The position numbers were made by a program, and so were the translations under genes. A model generated the notes under the pieces. The model saw only the letters and a program-made list of their open reading frames with translations. It was not told the DNA's origin and made no database searches. A stretch of DNA of 11,373 nt from Gemmatimonadota bacterium (GTDB taxonomy: Bacteria > Gemmatimonadota > Gemmatimonadetes > Gemmatimonadales > Gemmatimonadaceae): assembly GCA_031127185.1 (NCBI GenBank), contig JARIET010000063.1, positions 1 through 11,373 of the forward strand. Reading direction: 5' to 3'. Position 1 is the stretch's first letter. Each line of letters opens with the position of its first letter. Of this stretch, positions 1,707 to 11,330 are shown piece after piece.

Positions 1707-4700
1707 ATGCTGCAGTCCCTGAGGTGGCGCATCGCCACCGCGCTCGTGGCCCTGGCGAGCCTTGCGCTCCCGGGCGCCGTTTCAGCCCAAGGTACCGGAA
1801 CCGTGGAAGGTACGGTTACGGATGCCGCGTCCCAGCGCCCGCTGGCGAATGTGCAGGTGTCCATCCAGGGAACGGGGGCCACGGTCGGCGCCCTGACCAC
1901 TGCGGCGGGCACCTTTCGCATTCCCAACGTTGCGGTTGGGACCCAAACGGTGCGCGCGCGCCTGATCGGCTACGCCGCCGCGACGGCAACCGTCAGCGTG
2001 ACCGCCGGCGGAACCGGGCGAGTGAACATCGAGCTCCGGCAGTCGGCCATCGAGCTCTCGGCGGTCGTGACGACCGGCACTGGTGGCAGTCAGGTGGAAG
2101 CCCGAAAGCTGGGCAATACGGTTGCATCGGTTGAGATGCCGACGAACGTCCCGGTCGCCAACTTCTCGGACGCGCTGCAAGGCCGCGAGCCGGGCCTGAT
2201 GATGCTTCCGTCGTCCGGCACCACGGGCGAAGGCGCCCGTATCCGGATCCGCGGCAATGCATCGCTGTCGCAGAACAACGAACCGATCGTCTACGTCGAC
2301 GGCGTGCGCATCGATAACGGCGGCGGGTTCGGCGGCGGCTTCGTGGGCACCGGCGGCGGTGGTCGTCCGTCACGCCTCGACGACATCAACCCGTCGTCGA
2401 TCGAGAAGGTCGAAGTCCTCAAGGGTGCCGCAGCGGCAACGCTATATGGCACGGAAGCTTCGGCCGGCGTCATCCTGATCACGACCAAGAAGGGTGCCGT
2501 CTCGAACACCAAGTGGTCGCTCGATGTCGAGCAGGCCGCCAAGACATACCCGAAGGCCCGCATTGAGGATCAATACGGCTTCTCGGGCCGGACGTGCGGC
2601 ATCAGCGCAACGGCGAAAGCCTGCGCCGACACGCAATCCACGCGGTTGGCCGCCCATTTCGGCTACCCGATCAGCGCATACCAGGTGATCAACCAGAACG
2701 TCCCGACGCAACTCTTCGAGACGGGCAAGGCGACCACAGTCAGCGGTCAGGTGACCGGTGGCACTCCGCTCTCGACCTACTTCGCCTCCGTGCGCGCCTA
2801 TCGCGAAGACGGTCCGTTCACGGCGAACAACTTCGACTGGCCCGATGCCCAGGGGAACACACGCGGGGTGTTCATGAAGGACATCGCTAACAAGTATCAG
2901 GGCACGATGGCCATTGGCCTCACACCCACGAAGGAGTTCAAGCTCCAGTTCAACTCGTTGTTCGCGCTGACGCACAACGAAGTTCCGCAGAACAACAACA
3001 GCATCTACGCGCCGTACACGATCGGCCTGTTCTCGAAGCCTGAGAACGCGCAGTGCGACGCATCAAAGACCAGCGCCACGGATCCGAGCTTTGGCAGCCT
3101 CGGCAACGGGCTTTGCAAGGGCTCGGGCAACCCGACCGGCGCCAGCGCGTTCGGTTCGCAGCGTGAAATGGTTCAGGAAGAAGTCAAGCAGGACGCGCGC
3201 CACTACAATGGCTCGGTTCGCGCCAGCTTCATCCCGTCGGCAACGCTCAACTTCGATGCCACGTTCGGCATCGACTACACGGCGCAGCGCTCGACCCAGT
3301 TCCTCGGGTTCGGCAACAACGTGGACCGCCGCATCAACCGCGCGAACAACGGTTTTGCGAGCGTGGACAATCGGTCGAACCAGGTCCTGACGCTCTCCGT
3401 CAACGGCGGCTGGACGAGCACCATTCCCTTCGTGAACTTCTCGTCGAACCTCGTGTTCGGCGGCCAGGGTTTCATCACCCGGACCAACGTCGAAGGCGGC
3501 AATGCGACGGCGTTCCCGGGCCCAGGTATCGAAGTGCTGGGTGGTGCGGCGAGCCCGCAGGTGTTTGAATCGTTCGCCTCGATCGTGAACACCGGTATGT
3601 TCGCGCAGGAGCAGCTCGGCTGGCGCGACTGGGTGTTCGCCACGGTCGGTGGTCGGTATGACTACAACTCGGCGTTCGGCAAGACGTCGGGCGGCGTGTT
3701 TTATCCGCAGGCGTCGTTCTCGTTCGTGCTCAGCGATCGCAACGGGTACTCGGACAGCTTCATCGGCAAGTACCTGTCCACATTCCGCATCCGCGGTGCA
3801 CTGGGCAAGGCGGGACGCCAGCCGGGTGCCTTCGACAAGCTGACCACGTACTCGCCGCTGACTGCATCGACGGGCCCAGGCCTCGTTCCAGGCAACCTCG
3901 GCAACCCCGAACTCAAGCCCGAGATCTCGACTGAGATCGAGGTCGGCGCCGAGATCGGCCTGTTTGACGACAACGTCTCGGTTGACCTGACCCGCTGGCA
4001 GCGCAATCTCAAGGATGCACTGGTGGCCCGTCAGTTCCCGGTATCCGGCGGCTTCCGCGCGCTTCAGCTGGACAACATCGGCGAGATGCGCTCGTGGGGC
4101 TATGACGTAAAGGTGAAGGCCTTCCTGGTCAACCGGGCGAATCTCTCGGCCGACGTGTTCGCATCAACGGCCTTCCTCAGCCAGATCGTTTCGAGCCTGG
4201 GTGGCGCGCCGCCGCTCAAGGTTGGCGGCAGCTATCCGCGCTACCGCAACTTCATCAAGGAAGGCTACGCGCCCGGCACGTTCTTTGGCGCACGCCTGCC
4301 GCTGGCCTGCCAGGCCGGTAGGACTACGCACCCGGACGGTGGCGTTTGCATCGCGCAGGGCCAGCTCCCGGTTGACCTGAACGGCAACCGCATTCCGGAC
4401 ACGGAGGCGGAAGTGCTCGCCTACCTGGCATCGCCGCGTACGTTGACGAACGTCAACCCGATGCAGTCGGACGACAACAAGAATGGCGATCCGCTTGACC
4501 ACTTTGACGGCAAGCCGCTCCCGGACTTCGAAGGCGCGTTTGGTGGTTCGCTCACGTGGCGGAAGAACTGGCGCGTGTCGACCAACTTCGAGTATCGCGG
4601 TGGCAACTACACCATCTCGAACCTGACGCAGGCCTTCCGAACCGGCAGCCCGACGAACGGCGGCAACACAGAGCGTCGCGCGACGATCGAGTCGATCATC

Positions 4701-5072
4701 CAGAACCCGGCCAGCACGGCCGCGCAGCGGCTCGATGCGGCCAAGGAATACTGGGGTTCGATTGCCGCGCTCTCGCCGTACGACGGACTCAACCAGCAGA
4801 TGCCGGGTGACTTCATCCGCTGGCGCGAGCTGAGCCTGACGTACACGGCGCCGACGTCGTGGGCGGCGAAGGTTGGCGGCAGCGACATGTCGATCACATT
4901 CGCTGCACGCAACTTCATGATGTGGACGAAGTACCCCGGCGTTGACCCGGAAGTGAACGTCTTCGGCCGTGGCGGCGGTGGCGGAACTGACCAGAACGTC
5001 GGCGAGTCCATTGACGCCTTCGGATTCCCGATTCCGAAGCAGCTTTCCTTCAACATTCGCGTGGGCTTCTAA
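1707..5072 (+). CDS. SusC/RagA-family TonB-dependent outer-membrane transporter
   Basis: The product is 1121 aa, usual for this family. A Sec signal peptide spans residues 1-27 with likely cleavage after VSA. A carboxypeptidase-regulatory-like beta domain follows (about 30-111), then a TonB-box-like stretch ELSAVVTT (117-124). The plug domain (about 130-262) has the SusC-type signatures NEPIVYVDGVRIDN and IEKVEVLKG...LYGTEASAGVILITTKKG. The rest is a 22-strand-type barrel ending in an aromatic residue (LSFNIRVGF), the usual BAM recognition end. The start is fixed by GGAGGG (1695-1700), 6 nt before the ATG. The barrel region holds only six cysteines, as three close pairs (297/306, 450/470, 868/881), and a calcium-loop-like DLNGNRIPD (890-898). 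With the SusD-like partner it should import an oligomeric nutrient using TonB energy. The substrate is unknown. Confidence 0.95.
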   Translation: MLQSLRWRIATALVALASLALPGAVSAQGTGTVEGTVTDAASQRPLANVQVSIQGTGATVGALTTAAGTFRIPNVAVGTQTVRARLIGYAAATATVSVTAGGTGRVNIELRQSAIELSAVVTTGTGGSQVEARKLGNTVASVEMPTNVPVANFSDALQGREPGLMMLPSSGTTGEGARIRIRGNASLSQNNEPIVYVDGVRIDNGGGFGGGFVGTGGGGRPSRLDDINPSSIEKVEVLKGAAAATLYGTEASAGVILITTKKGAVSNTKWSLDVEQAAKTYPKARIEDQYGFSGRTCGISATAKACADTQSTRLAAHFGYPISAYQVINQNVPTQLFETGKATTVSGQVTGGTPLSTYFASVRAYREDGPFTANNFDWPDAQGNTRGVFMKDIANKYQGTMAIGLTPTKEFKLQFNSLFALTHNEVPQNNNSIYAPYTIGLFSKPENAQCDASKTSATDPSFGSLGNGLCKGSGNPTGASAFGSQREMVQEEVKQDARHYNGSVRASFIPSATLNFDATFGIDYTAQRSTQFLGFGNNVDRRINRANNGFASVDNRSNQVLTLSVNGGWTSTIPFVNFSSNLVFGGQGFITRTNVEGGNATAFPGPGIEVLGGAASPQVFESFASIVNTGMFAQEQLGWRDWVFATVGGRYDYNSAFGKTSGGVFYPQASFSFVLSDRNGYSDSFIGKYLSTFRIRGALGKAGRQPGAFDKLTTYSPLTASTGPGLVPGNLGNPELKPEISTEIEVGAEIGLFDDNVSVDLTRWQRNLKDALVARQFPVSGGFRALQLDNIGEMRSWGYDVKVKAFLVNRANLSADVFASTAFLSQIVSSLGGAPPLKVGGSYPRYRNFIKEGYAPGTFFGARLPLACQAGRTTHPDGGVCIAQGQLPVDLNGNRIPDTEAEVLAYLASPRTLTNVNPMQSDDNKNGDPLDHFDGKPLPDFEGAFGGSLTWRKNWRVSTNFEYRGGNYTISNLTQAFRTGSPTNGGNTERRATIESIIQNPASTAAQRLDAAKEYWGSIAALSPYDGLNQQMPGDFIRWRELSLTYTAPTSWAAKVGGSDMSITFAARNFMMWTKYPGVDPEVNVFGRGGGGGTDQNVGESIDAFGFPIPKQLSFNIRVGF

Positions 5073-5074
5073 CG

Positions 5075-6427
5075 ATGACGACCCCCCACAACATCTTCGC
5101 TTCCACCCGCCGCGCAGTTCGGCTGGTCGCCGGTGCGGGCGTGCTGCTCGTTGCTGGTGCCTGCCAGAACCTGCTCGATGTGGAAAACCCGAACAACATC
5201 GCGGAATCCTCGCTCGAAAACCCCGCCTCCGCTGGCCCTCAGGCCAACGGAGCGCTGGGGGCGCTGACCCGGATGTTGAGCGCCACGACAGTCGTGTACT
5301 CCGATGCAACCGATGAAATGGATTGGATCGGTTCGCGCGACGCATGGGGTGAGCTCGATCAGGGAATCATCGGCAACCATATCAATGAGTTCGCCGACGG
5401 CGCATTCCCGTGGTCGACCGAGGCGCGATACCTCGCCGACCAGACGATCGCCCGCCTGGAAAAGTTCGACACGGACGGGGTCCTTTTGACCCGTTCGGAC
5501 TTGATGCGGTCGTACCTCTACGGTGCGGTGGTGTATGCCTCCATCGCCGACATGTACGATGATTTTGCGTTTTCGAACAAGACTATCGCTGCCGCACCGG
5601 TTGGCCGCGCGAACATGTTCAAGTTGTACGACACGGCGGTGGGCTACCTCGACAAGGCACTCGCCATCGCGACGTCCAACTCCGACCGGTTCAACATCCT
5701 CGCGTACCGCGCGCGGGTGAAGCACGGCAAGGGCGTTTGGCAGAAAGTGACGCCCAAGGGCACCTCGGCACCGGCCCAGCCGCTGGTGAACGACGCTGGC
5801 GCAGTTGCGGATGCCAACGCAGCGATCGCCCTTGCCTCGCCCGACCAGGAGTTCAACCTGGTGAACAATCAGGAAGCCACGGCCGGCATCAACGTCTGGT
5901 TCGAGGTCAACGGGCGCAACGAAAGCGCTCCGGGCGCGACGTATGTCGTGAATCCGTTGAGCGTCACCGACAAGTACGTCGCCAAGCTGCGGGACCCGGT
6001 GTCAAACACGCCTGATGCACGGTTGCAGGCACGCCTGACCGCGTTCAAGGCGTTTGGGACGCTCTCCGGTACGTTGTGGATCACCAGCGTCCGTGAGCTG
6101 CGGCTGATCCTGGCCGAGGCGGCTCTGGCTGCGAACAACGTGGCCGAGTTCACCACACAGCTCAATATGGTGCGCGCGATGGATGGCAAGCCCGCGTTCA
6201 CCGGTCAGATTGCGAATACCACGATGCTCGCGTACGAGCGTCAGGCGCAGCTGTGGCTCATGCGCCGCCGCCTGATGGACATGTACCGGTTTGGACAAAA
6301 GGACCCGAAGTGGACGACGAGCTCGAACTACGACTCGGCGTTCAGTCAGGTGGGGCTGCTCTTCCCGATCACGAATGTGGAGAGGCTGGCCAATCCCTGC
6401 TACAGCGATCCAACGAAGTGCCAGTAG
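5075..6427 (+). CDS. SusD/RagB-like substrate-binding outer-membrane lipoprotein
   Basis: The 450-aa product has basic residues, a hydrophobic stretch and a lipobox-like LLVAGAC ending at Cys30, the expected lipidation site. Next comes CQNLLDVENPNNI, the usual start of a mature SusD-like protein. The C-terminal FPITNVERLANP matches the end of RagB/SusD-type proteins. The middle is helical, as expected for the TPR-like SusD fold. In this family the protein caps the SusC barrel and captures substrate at the cell surface. The ATG lies 2 bp after the susC-like stop (TAA-CG-ATG) and no Shine-Dalgarno sequence is visible, so translation is probably coupled to the upstream gene. The mature protein ends with two cysteines eight residues apart (NPCYSDPTKCQ), a possible disulphide. 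The exact substrate cannot be inferred. Confidence 0.93.
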   Translation: MTTPHNIFASTRRAVRLVAGAGVLLVAGACQNLLDVENPNNIAESSLENPASAGPQANGALGALTRMLSATTVVYSDATDEMDWIGSRDAWGELDQGIIGNHINEFADGAFPWSTEARYLADQTIARLEKFDTDGVLLTRSDLMRSYLYGAVVYASIADMYDDFAFSNKTIAAAPVGRANMFKLYDTAVGYLDKALAIATSNSDRFNILAYRARVKHGKGVWQKVTPKGTSAPAQPLVNDAGAVADANAAIALASPDQEFNLVNNQEATAGINVWFEVNGRNESAPGATYVVNPLSVTDKYVAKLRDPVSNTPDARLQARLTAFKAFGTLSGTLWITSVRELRLILAEAALAANNVAEFTTQLNMVRAMDGKPAFTGQIANTTMLAYERQAQLWLMRRRLMDMYRFGQKDPKWTTSSNYDSAFSQVGLLFPITNVERLANPCYSDPTKCQ

Positions 6428-7501: not shown

Positions 7502-9637
7502 ATGAGTCAATCGACGGGTCGCGAAACCGAACTGAAGCATTACCGCAACATCGGCATCATGGCCCACATTGATGCCGGGAAGACGACCACGACTGAGCGC
7601 ATCCTCTACTACACGGGGAAGTCGCACAAGATTGGTGAAGTCCACGATGGCGCCGCCACGATGGACTGGATGGAGCAGGAGCAGGAACGCGGCATCACGA
7701 TCACGTCTGCGGCGACGACCTGCTTCTGGAAGCGCCACGGCTCCACGCACAAGACGGATGAGGCGACGGGTCCGGAATACAGGATCAACATCATCGACAC
7801 GCCCGGTCACGTGGATTTCACGGTGGAAGTCGAGCGGTCGCTGCGCGTGCTTGACGGCGCCGTGACGCTGCTGGACTCGGTTGCCGGCGTCGAGCCGCAG
7901 ACCGAAACCGTGTGGCGCCAGGCCGATCGCTACAAGGTGCCGCGCATCATTTTCGCGAATAAGATGGACCGGGTCGGTGCGAACTTCGATCGTTGCATGG
8001 AGATGATCCGTGGGCGGCTGACGAAGGAAGCGCACCCGCTTCAGTTGCCGGTGGGGTCGGGCGAGCTCTTCACGGGCCACATCGACGTCATCGAGCGCAA
8101 GCAGTACATCTTCGACGAAGAAACGCTCGGCAAGACCTTCACGGTCACCGAGGTACCGGCCGACATGAAGGAGATCGTCGAGCAGACGCGTCACGCGCTG
8201 GTCGAGGCCGCGATTCAGTACGACGACGAACTTATCGAGAAGTACCTGGCCGGCGAGACGCTGACCGATGACGAGATTCGCCATGCGATTCGCGCGGCGA
8301 CGCTCAAGATGCATTTCGTGCCGGTGCTCTGCGGCGCCTCGTTCAAGAACAAGGGCGTGCAGGCGCTGCTCGACGCGGTCATCGACTTCCTGCCGGCGCC
8401 GGTCGACGTGCCGCCGATGCAGGGGCACCTGCCGCACCACGACGAGCATTTCGAGACGCGGGAAGTGAGCGACGATGCGCCGTTTTCGGCGCTCGCGTTC
8501 AAGATCGCGACCGATCCGTTCGTCGGAAAGCTGACCTTTTTCCGCGTCTATTCCGGCACGATGAAGGCCGGCTCGGGCGTGTATAACTCGACCAAAGACA
8601 AGACCGAGCGGGTCGGGCGTCTGCTGCAGATGCACGCCAACAAGCGCGAAGAGATCACCGAAGTGCGCGCCGGCGACATCGCCGCCGCCATCGGCCTCAA
8701 GGAAACGCGCACGGGCGATACGCTCTCGGACGAGAACAAGCCGATCATCCTCGAGGCGATGAAGTTCCCGGCGCCCGTGATCGACGTGGCGATTGAGCCG
8801 AAGACCAAGGCCGACCAGGACAAGCTGGCGATCGCGCTGCAGAAGCTGGCGGAGGAAGATCCGACATTCCGCGTTCACACGGACGCGGAAACGTCGCAGA
8901 CGATCATCTCAGGAATGGGCGAACTACACCTCGAGATCATCGTGGACCGCATGATGCGCGAGTTCAAGGTGGACGCGAACGTGGGCCGACCGCAGGTGGC
9001 GTATCGCGAGACCATCCGCAAGTCGGTCAACAAGGTGGAAGGCAAGTTCATCCGGCAGTCGGGCGGTAAGGGCCAGTACGGCCACGTGGTCATCAACGTC
9101 TCGCCCGCCGAGACGGGGCAGGGCTTCGTCTTCGAAGACGAGATCGTCGGTGGCACGATTCCGCGCGAGTACATCAAGCCGGTTGAAGCCGGCATCAAGG
9201 AAGCGCTGGAAAACGGCGTGCTGGCGGGCTATCCGATGGTCGACGTGAAGGTTGCGCTCGTCTACGGCTCGTACCACGATGTGGACTCCAGCGAAATGGC
9301 GTTCAAGATCGCGGGCTCGATGGCCATCAAGGAGGCGTGCCGCATTGCGAACCCGGTGCTGCTCGAGCCCATGATGAACGTCGAAGTCGTGACGCCCGAT
9401 GCGTTCATGGGCGACGTGCTCGGCGACATCTCGGCGCGTCGCGGCAAGATCGGCGGCATGACGCAGCGCGGCGAAGCGCAGGTGATTGCGGCGACGGTGC
9501 CGCTCTCGGAAATGTTCGGGTACTCCACCCGCATGCGTTCGATGACGCAGGGGCGCGCGGTGTACTCCATGGAATTCGCGCACTATGACGAGGTGCCGAA
9601 GTCGAAGGCAGAAGAGATCGTCAGCAAGCAGAAGTAA
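7502..9637 (+). CDS. fusA: Translation elongation factor G
   Basis: EF-G is the GTPase that drives tRNA-mRNA translocation on the ribosome. From the ATG at 7502 the product is 711 aa, typical for EF-G. The GTPase motifs are complete: G1 AHIDAGKT (21-28), switch I RGITI (63-67), G3 DTPGHVD (99-105), G4 NKMD (153-156) and the GAS loop (278-280). Domain II follows from about 310, domain IV shows GGKGQYGHV (521-529), and domain V has ARRGKIGGM and [18 protein letters not shown] near the end. The frame is open 126 codons further upstream, but only the start [18 protein letters not shown] aligns with EF-G N-termini. The segment between switch I and G3 (about 77-94) is about seven residues longer than in E. 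coli, as judged from memory of that sequence. It heads an operon with tuf, 62 nt downstream. Confidence 0.97.
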
Positions 9638-9699: not shown

Positions 9700-10902
9700 A
9701 TGGCCAAGGCAAAGTTCGAGCGGAACAAGCCACACGTGAACGTCGGCACCATCGGCCACGTTGACCACGGCAAGACCACGCTCACCGCGGCGCTCACGAA
9801 GATTTCGTCCGATAAGGGTTTCGGCACGAAGTACATCGCCTATGACCAGGTCGCCAAGGCGTCCGAGTCGCAGGGTCGTCGTGACCCCACGAAGATCCTC
9901 ACGATTGCCACGTCGCACGTGGAGTACGAGACGACCGCGCGTCACTACGCGCACGTCGACTGCCCCGGCCACGCGGACTATGTGAAGAACATGATCACGG
10001 GTGCCGCGCAGATGGACGGCGCGATCCTCGTGGTGAGCGCGGTCGACGGGCCGATGCCTCAGACGCGCGAGCACATCCTGCTCGCCCGCCAGGTCAACGT
10101 GCCGAAGATCGTCGTCTTCCTGAACAAGTGCGACCTCGTGGAAGACTCCGAGCTCCTCGACCTCGTCGAGCTCGAAGTGCGCGAGCTGCTCTCCAAGTAC
10201 AACTACGACGGCGACAATGCGCCGGTGATCCGCGGGTCGGCCATCAAGGCGATCGAAGGCGACGCGGCCTGGATTGCAAAGATCGAAGAGCTGTATTCCT
10301 CGCTGGACTCGTTCATCCCGGAGCCGGTGCGCGCCGTGGACCAGCCGCTGCTGATGCCGGTCGAAGACGTGTTCTCGATCACGGGCCGCGGCACTGTGGC
10401 CACCGGGCGTATCGACCGCGGCAAGGTGAAGGTGGGCGACGAACTCGAACTCGTGGGCTTCGGCACGGACAAGAAGACCATCGTGACGGGCGTCGAGATG
10501 TTCCGCAAGCTGCTGGATGACGGTCAGGCCGGTGACAATGTCGGTCTCCTCCTCCGCGGAGTGGACAAGAAGGAGATTGAGCGCGGCATGGTGTTGGCCA
10601 AGCCGGGTTCGATCACGCCGCACACGAAGTTCGAGGCCGAGGTGTACGTCCTCACGAAGGATGAGGGCGGCCGTCACACGCCGTTCTTCAAGGGATACCG
10701 TCCGCAGTTCTATCTCCGCACCACCGACGTCACGGGTTCGATCGAGTTGCCGGGCGGCACGGAGATGGTGATGCCGGGCGACAACACGCAGATGGTGATT
10801 GAGCTCATCACCCCCGTCGCGATGGAGACGCAGCTGCGTTTTGCCATCCGCGAGGGTGGCCGCACGGTTGGCTCGGGCGTCATCACGAAAATCCTGAAGT
10901 AA
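9700..10902 (+). CDS. tuf: Elongation factor Tu with divergent switch I
   Basis: EF-Tu delivers aminoacyl-tRNA to the ribosomal A site as a GTP complex. The 400-aa product is slightly longer than E. coli EF-Tu. G1 GHVDHGKT (19-26), G3 DCPGH (87-91), G4 NKCD (142-145) and G5 GSA (179-181) are intact. Domains II and III are highly conserved: [41 protein letters not shown], and the end [14 protein letters not shown]. The unusual part is switch I (53-72). The usual APEE(K/R)xRGITIN is replaced by [20 protein letters not shown], about five residues longer, with RGIT read as KILT. The Mg-binding Thr (T68) and the following TSHVEYET are kept. Neither alternative frame restores the usual motif, so a sequencing frameshift is not the cause. 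A good Shine-Dalgarno AAGGA supports the start. It lies between fusA and rpsJ, as in many str/S10 clusters. Confidence 0.97.
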
Positions 10903-11021: not shown

Positions 11022-11330
11022 ATGGCTGGCAGAATTCGCATCAGACTGAAGGCTTTTGACCACGCGGTGATCGACCAGGCCGCGGGGGACATCGTGCGCA
11101 CGGCTGAAAAGACGGGCGCGCAGGTGTCGGGACCGATCCCGTTGCCGACGAAGACGCAGCGGTGGACCGTGCTGCGTTCGCCGCACGTGGACAAGAAGTC
11201 CCGCGAACAGTTCGAGCTCAAGACGCACAAGCGCGTGATCGACATTCTCGACTCGCGCGCGCAGACGGTGGACGCGCTGACCAAGCTCGACCTGCCGGCC
11301 GGCGTGGACGTCGAAATCAAGGTGGAGTAG
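11022..11330 (+). CDS. rpsJ: 30S ribosomal protein S10 (NusE)
   Basis: The 102-aa product is the usual length for S10 and is recognisable along its whole length: [18 protein letters not shown] at the start, [20 protein letters not shown] in the middle (the long loop), [18 protein letters not shown], and the conserved end [13 protein letters not shown]10 is part of the 30S head and also acts as NusE with NusB in transcription antitermination (family knowledge). GAGGAA (11011-11016) lies 5 nt before the ATG. It follows tuf after a 119-nt spacer with the inverted heptamer array and is followed 2 nt later by rplC, the standard start of an S10 operon. Confidence 0.97.

Follow-up and report, generated by a model that had tools for sequence, protein, structure and literature searches.

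The window, which is the whole stretch of 11,373 nucleotides analysed (contig JARIET010000063.1 of a Gemmatimonadota bacterium), harbours the elongation factor Tu gene tuf in the order fusA-tuf-rpsJ, which is its str-operon position (Table 1). Against the NCBIfam EF-Tu equivalog TIGR00485, whose cut-off is 522.4, the protein encoded by tuf reached 702.7 bits, and its motifs are standard, including G1 GHVDHGK, G3 DCPGH, G4 NKCD, and the switch I threonine Thr68. By this score and these motifs the protein is a bacterial EF-Tu, with aminoacyl-tRNA delivery as its predicted function. Upstream of the str operon end, two adjacent frames (1707-5072 and 5075-6427) resemble by their sequence an outer-membrane pair of SusC/SusD type.

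Table 1. Features of the window related to tuf and its switch I segment
Feature	Position	Strand	Remark
fusA (EF-G), str operon, 5′ of tuf	7502..9637	+	RGITI retained; start codon picked within a longer open frame
tuf (EF-Tu), 400 aa, K-type	9700..10902	+	sole tuf detected in the partial genome of the window
Block of residues 26-82	9775..9945	+	K-versus-R tree conflicting with the remainder of the protein
Switch I segment, residues 53-72	9856..9915	+	[20 protein letters not shown], then HVEYET
Insertion DPTKI, residues 62-66	9883..9897	+	relative to RGIT-type EF-Tu; MAFFT placement
Thr68, equivalent of the Mg2+-binding switch I threonine	9901..9903	+	column invariant in alignment
Residue 146 (Leu)	10135..10137	+	right after NKCD; Met in 78/94 R-type and 0/116 K-type sequences (three groups)
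rpsJ (S10), 3′ of tuf	11022..11330	+	named on the basis of its own sequence

According to the original prediction, residues 53-72 of this EF-Tu are rewritten and lengthened by about five residues, with loss of RGITI. Translation and MAFFT alignment confirmed the observation: canonical RGIT(I) is absent, and KILTI is found instead, together with five extra residues directly before the conserved (I/L)-T-I in comparison with RGIT-type EF-Tus. The subgroup of the window possesses one further extra residue near 43-44 relative to the same EF-Tus. Hereafter, K denotes the long-KILT form, whose segment reads [19 protein letters not shown], and R the RGIT form. The translation also bore out that HVEYET, G1, G3, G4, and Thr68, which corresponds to the switch I threonine that binds Mg2+, are standard. 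In the MAFFT placement, the insertion site lies between the positions of Gly59 and Ile60 in E. coli numbering. Identity of the window EF-Tu to the R-type rows aligned was 64-73%.

The residues Asp62, Lys65, and Ile66 were present in 70/70 K-type sequences of Gemmatimonadota, in 35/35 of the family of a Hyphomicrobium metagenome-assembled genome (MAG), and in 11/11 of the phylum of a Nitrospira MAG, with identical rows counted once, and the same positions are gaps in R-type sequences. This invariance excludes chance or sequencing error. Linked sites were found upstream, where K sequences possess Leu for Ile at residue 32 and mostly Asp at residue 38, with the same shift across groups. The clearest co-varying site outside residues 26-82 is residue 146, which is Met in R-type sequences of Gemmatimonadota (33/40), Alphaproteobacteria (21/30), and Nitrospirota (24/24), and never in K-type sequences of these groups (0/70, 0/35, and 0/11, respectively). 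The change was predicted to be specific to EF-Tu, and this holds among the translational GTPases checked in the genome of the window: RGIT is kept in EF-G and in both further members whose motif could be read (L002 and L003, which look like TypA and LepA).

A second, canonical tuf was looked for and not found in the genome of the window (219 contigs, 61.05% complete); in four single-contig relatives (G019, G039, G074, and G129) one tuf match apiece was detected, of K type. Several relatives likewise harbour K-type tuf at the normal str-operon locus.

The distribution of both forms was surveyed with a probe of 49 residues (window 9820-9966), so that K and R counts are probe scores, and sequences were read only for fetched loci. 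Groups are named here after the titles of the records on which each search was centred. Scores in Gemmatimonadota and Nitrospirota were bimodal, with K at 70 bits or above and all else at 51 or below. In Planctomycetota, long K scored at least 66 bits and all else below 50, and in the Hyphomicrobium family K scored at least 70 bits, except one copy at 61.5, with two partial matches at 52 and 28. Genomes without match were left unclassified (89/249 in Gemmatimonadota, 27/99 in the Hyphomicrobium family, 46/100 in the Nitrospira phylum, 19/199 in Planctomycetota, and 6/117 in Bradyrhizobium); their lack of a match may reflect loss of tuf from draft assemblies.

Among the 249 Gemmatimonadota genomes searched, 160 were matched, including 90 K, 68 R, and 2 partial (G028 and G233). 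The family of the window (f1) comprises 53 K, 14 R, and 1 partial among 68 genomes, while family f5 is mostly R with three K genomes (G034, G096, and G188), and genus g30 holds both types (G008 R, G049 K). The suggestion of a phylum-wide trait of Gemmatimonadota is therefore not sustained, as both types occur within one family and within one genus. Nor is the segment confined to this lineage, since it was found in records titled Hyphomicrobium, Nitrospira, Planctomycetota, Kiritimatiellaeota, Acidobacteriota, and Bradyrhizobium. The family of the Hyphomicrobium MAG (G253; 99 genomes searched, 72 matched) possesses 44 K, 26 R, and 2 partial matches (G644 and G648), and the phylum of the Nitrospira MAG (G256; 100 searched, 54 matched) 9 K and 45 R, one of the latter being a short partial. 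In Planctomycetota, the phylum of the Sedimentisphaerales MAG G259, 18 of the 180 matched genomes (199 searched) harbour long K and the remainder score lower; nine readable loci of this lower-scoring set correspond to seven shorter K-like forms and two R. The segment is also present in one Kiritimatiellaeota MAG and one Acidobacteriota MAG among the matches listed. Searched across Gemmatimonadota and other phyla, the segment is thus conserved in many genomes; as to whether such a form is common across many phyla, it occurs in several, with K and R coexisting. Taken together, the earlier interpretation is partly supported.

Where all matches were listed, which applies to two groups, no genome with at least two matches held K together with R according to the probe scores (0/15 in the Hyphomicrobium family and 0/25 in the Nitrospira phylum); for Gemmatimonadota only some of the weaker matches were listed, and a genome with both types may exist there. 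Uniform tuf copies within a genome are as expected if gene conversion homogenises them, and gene conversion between tuf genes is described in PMC4342817.

Other observations were made in the same survey. Of the 226 Gemmatimonadota genomes with a completeness of at least 90% and no more than 5% contamination, 80 are among those without tuf probe match; tuf duplicates that are almost identical may have been lost during draft assembly. In the Hyphomicrobium family, one genome encodes a third EF-Tu-like protein besides its two regular R-type tuf genes; this protein is strongly divergent and contains VRGITI (L332, G639:C1:3689700-3691500). Another genome of this family possesses, besides its own K-tuf, an extra K-tuf similar to that of Bradyrhizobium (L330/L367, G640:C26), on a contig that begins at the gene.

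K-type EF-Tu shares with canonical EF-Tu (TIGR00485, E. coli TufA/TufB) the three domains, G1, G3, and G4, the Mg-binding threonine, HVEYE, and the str-operon position. It differs from it by (T/S)KI(L/M/I)TI in place of RGITI plus five residues, by a block 26-82 with a separate tree, and by a residue 146 that is not Met. Short K-like EF-Tus of planctomycetes (L161, L166, and L168-L172) also lack RGIT, possess a Lys two residues before (hydrophobic)-T-I, and join long K in the tree of block 26-82. However, their form AKGG...TK(I/T)(L/V)TI contains two extra residues instead of five and lacks ASESQGRRD, and the window EF-Tu does not show this form. It is possible that these short forms are relatives of the K-type loop. 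Jenkins and Fuerst reportedly described in 2001 (J Mol Evol 52:405) a planctomycete-specific EF-Tu motif, to which the short segment may correspond.

Switch I of EF-Tu is treated as near-invariant. Streptomyces EF-Tu3, known as actEF-Tu, keeps RGIT; similar to the K-tuf of Bradyrhizobium described below, it is a divergent extra EF-Tu beside a housekeeping copy. In contrast, the K-tuf of the window lies in the str operon and is the only copy found, and no divergent second tuf beside a canonical one was detected in this genome at 61.05% completeness. Atkinson 2015 (PMC4342817) describes EF-Tu3 as stress-expressed and antibiotic-resistant, and regards this actinomycete subfamily as the sole EF-Tu-like one that stands clearly apart from EF-Tu. 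Neither the K-type loop nor a mosaic history of it was found described in the titles and abstract openings listed from the open-access literature, a scope that leaves most subscription journals outside, and passages of PMC3444138, PMC7203096, PMC13351119, and PMC4342817 do not describe such a loop. A PDB sequence search listed 59 distinct sequences, and the best alignment was with canonical RGITI.

For the phylogenetic analysis 352 loci were available, 16 of them without parsable EF-Tu; 97 of the other 336 were hand-picked for spread, aligned, and used for trees, covering both types, the surveyed groups, and other bacteria. The long-branched L332 and L044 were omitted from the tests on residues 83-212, domains II-III, and block 26-82, and approximately unbiased (AU) tests were run under LG+G4 and not under a mixture model. 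In the tree without residues 26-82, K and R of Alphaproteobacteria formed one clade (support 100/99; 22 rows, with the odd paralogue L332 apart), and so did K and R of Gemmatimonadota (99/98; 30 rows). Planctomycetota formed a clade (99/95) of 14 out of 15 rows plus the uncultured L037, with the short-K L166 elsewhere. Forcing all long-K sequences into one clade was rejected in this tree (AU p=2.2e-5). With domains II-III alone, a single clade of Gemmatimonadota K and alphaproteobacterial K was rejected (p=0.0016); neither Gemmatimonadota nor Alphaproteobacteria is strictly a single clade there, as two changes are needed in each, and one change sufficed in 0% and 8% of bootstrap trees, respectively. 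Parsimony required 10-12 changes of state.

Block 26-82 gave a different picture. Once the insert columns were taken out, R stood apart from both long and short K (100/99), and monophyly was rejected for both Alphaproteobacteria (p=0.025) and Gemmatimonadota (p=0.004). Mean identity of Hyphomicrobium-family K over residues 45-82 was 0.81 to Gemmatimonadota K and 0.50 to alphaproteobacterial R, whereas over residues 213-310 and 311-400 it was 0.70 and 0.76 to the former versus 0.79 and 0.84 to the latter. For the EF-G adjoining a Hyphomicrobium K-tuf (L039), identity is 70.6% to a Methylobacterium counterpart and 54.6% to the one in the window; this EF-G is thus alphaproteobacterial in type, which makes the locus look native. 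The trees thus give good support to a conflict of the block with the remainder of EF-Tu for Alphaproteobacteria and Gemmatimonadota, and recombination or transfer is its likely cause.

Not all partitions were decisive. Over all residues outside the block, a single clade of Gemmatimonadota K and alphaproteobacterial K was not rejected (AU p=0.23). In the tree of residues 83-212 alone, alphaproteobacterial K did not join alphaproteobacterial R, and the AU tests gave p=0.26 and 0.32. As this stretch is undecided, the transferred piece has no mapped downstream end, and in Alphaproteobacteria it may reach further into the G domain or even span all of it. The K of Bradyrhizobium over residues 311-400 is 0.71 identical to Gemmatimonadota K and 0.68 to alphaproteobacterial R. 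The mean identity of Nitrospirota K outside the block is the higher one for Nitrospirota R; as Nitrospirota K nevertheless lies apart from Nitrospirota R in the tree without residues 26-82, Nitrospirota were not counted as a separate case. Its grouping with Gemmatimonadota K was borderline with domains II-III (p=0.051). Two further K rows (L036 and L043) were placed beside unrelated taxa in the tree without the block. At fourfold sites, which are saturated, block 26-82 was no more alike between phyla than elsewhere, so the events would be old, and the DNA is also compatible with convergence. DNA evidence for a recent patch transfer was looked for and not seen at these saturated sites.

Within Bradyrhizobium, the genus of G261, 117 genomes were searched and 111 matched; eleven possess an extra K-tuf (one of them in two copies), and all eleven also carry R-tuf. 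The extra K-tuf was analysed at 13 loci in 12 genomes (L357-L366, L048, L139, and L141), which have differing neighbours, with a TonB-receptor neighbourhood in six loci. About 260 bases 5′ of the gene are conserved in 13/13 loci, and sequence further upstream is shared only within subgroups. This leader starts with a promoter-like CTTGC...TATGTA (TATTTA in one group), followed by a frame of 26-27 codons and then by structured sequence, where ACACCTG past the stop of this frame is able to base-pair with CAGGTGT, which lies at the ribosome-binding site of tuf. RNAalifold predicted 66 pairs from 12 leader sequences, four of them changed on both sides; the pairs of the binding site hardly vary and are therefore not tested by covariation. 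In folds of single sequences (z-scores -1.9 and -2.6) the ribosome-binding site is paired locally instead in L358. Rfam gave 0 matches for the leader. Among 198 genomes of the wider family, leader DNA was detected in full length only in G261, and over 22-35 bases in three others. Plasmid carriage was considered and found no support: plasmid records matching the Bradyrhizobium K protein numbered 1441, none of which reached 80% identity, and the 15 listed ranged from 62.8 to 64.2%. The leader looks like a translational attenuator of a backup EF-Tu, a prediction that we regard as a lead.

AlphaFold2 predicted the window protein in a closed, GTP-like form, with a TM score of about 0.9 to 1eft and 1ttt and about 0.54 to 1efc. 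Switch I was modelled with one helix (48-55), and residues 54-72 had a pLDDT below 50. The R control possessed two short helices in switch I and was poorly predicted at 55-57 and 59-67. Since switch I was predicted with low confidence for K and R alike, no mechanism was drawn from these models. In a stretch of the 16S 5′ domain, which is related to the EF-Tu site, no column has one fixed state in the 13 K and another in the 5 R genomes of Gemmatimonadota (42 searched, 19 matched, 18 usable). The earlier suggestion that timing of GTP hydrolysis, EF-Ts or tRNA contacts, or antibiotic sensitivity may be altered thus received no supporting co-change from this stretch. Given no 16S column separating the types, we think that K-type EF-Tu goes through the usual cycle on ordinary ribosomes, with a loop of another kind.

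Elfamycin resistance and co-occurrence with Lit were examined as candidates related to this loop and rejected. The contexts of the elfamycin-resistance sites look canonical in the window EF-Tu. Lit, a phage-exclusion protease, cleaves EF-Tu of E. coli within RGITI, at the bond from Gly59 to Ile60; its family PF10463 was found in 4/249 Gemmatimonadota genomes, corresponding to one K (with an internal stop), two R, and one without tuf match.

The window protein is a housekeeping EF-Tu with a second natural switch I allele of mosaic, multi-phylum history. On balance we favour, as probable, that K is an old alternative switch I that was spread by horizontal transfer and intragenic recombination into otherwise native tuf genes. 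K would have had a single origin, possibly near Planctomycetota, where shorter K-like forms occur, and would have entered other lineages via ancient horizontal transfer of tuf. Homologous recombination or gene conversion between tuf genes would then have restored native domains II-III, with the K loop retained as a patch. In the GTP state, switch I would still close over Mg-GTP via Thr68, and the loop before Thr68 would be longer, with Arg-Arg-Asp-x-Thr-Lys replacing Arg-Gly. With such a loop, the stretch that refolds on hydrolysis would differ, in a cycle that is otherwise normal on a standard ribosome.

The same pattern could have arisen if the K loop evolved repeatedly in native EF-Tus because few lengthened switch I sequences work. 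Synonymous sites of the block without excess similarity are consistent with such convergence, and the shorter forms of Planctomycetota indicate that partial steps exist. Nevertheless, about 20 residues are nearly letter-for-letter alike between phyla, Asp62, Lys65, and Ile66 are invariant in 116/116 K sequences of three groups, and positions 32 and 38 shift alike, so that we consider convergence unlikely. Transfer of the whole K-type gene or of its whole G domain, with domains II-III later converging on or being converted to the host type, is a rather improbable account. It agrees with alphaproteobacterial K not joining alphaproteobacterial R in the tree of residues 83-212, with Hyphomicrobium-family K being nearer to Gemmatimonadota K than to alphaproteobacterial R in most windows of residues 131-180, and with K-tuf being an extra gene in Bradyrhizobium. 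The K sequences of family f5 are nested within other Gemmatimonadota K in the tree without residues 26-82, which resembles whole-gene transfer within the phylum. In Nitrospirota K, however, residues 83-140 are 0.98 identical to Nitrospirota R versus 0.94 to Gemmatimonadota K. An apparent mosaic caused by the scant phylogenetic signal of EF-Tu or by mis-binned metagenome contigs seems very unlikely to us. Although 33 of the 94 inner branches in the tree without residues 26-82 have support below 80, and a number of K records come from MAGs whose names are doubtful, the AU rejections are reciprocal, being obtained for the block and also for the sequence outside it, including domains II-III. Moreover, K-tuf adjoins an alphaproteobacterial type of EF-G, and it is present in Bradyrhizobium, including records titled as strains, on contigs of up to 9.8 Mb.

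Under the spread of an old switch I by transfer and recombination, retention of K is most likely explained by near-neutral lock-in or by evasion of some factor able to recognise RGITI in its canonical form. The specific proposal that K was kept because an agent attacking RGITI (Lit, another toxin, or an antibiotic) does not recognise it is compatible with that history, and we hold it only as a doubtful possibility. The placement of the insertion at the Lit cleavage position, the K/R dimorphism in several groups, and the own leader of the extra K-tuf in Bradyrhizobium point to it. Against it stand the Lit family, which is rare in Gemmatimonadota and shows no association with type, the RGIT kept by EF-G and two other translational GTPases, and the canonical contexts of the elfamycin-resistance sites. 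A wider and quite improbable reading is that K and R are two interchangeable trans-phylum switch I alleles under balancing selection. K would then be a sub-gene patch conferring immunity to an agent directed at RGITI, and the Bradyrhizobium gene an inducible backup with promoter, leader peptide, and an attenuator sequestering the Shine-Dalgarno sequence, switched on when canonical EF-Tu fails.

If the favoured history of transfer and recombination is true, a second natural switch I has been swapped into distant EF-Tu backbones, and the GTP switch would be modular. EF-Tu is used as a phylogenetic marker, and trees of tuf would mix histories within one gene. Nature would also supply matched pairs, K versus R within the same family, for probing the role of the RGITI loop, and these pairs would serve as a ready-made test of agents directed against that loop in its canonical form.
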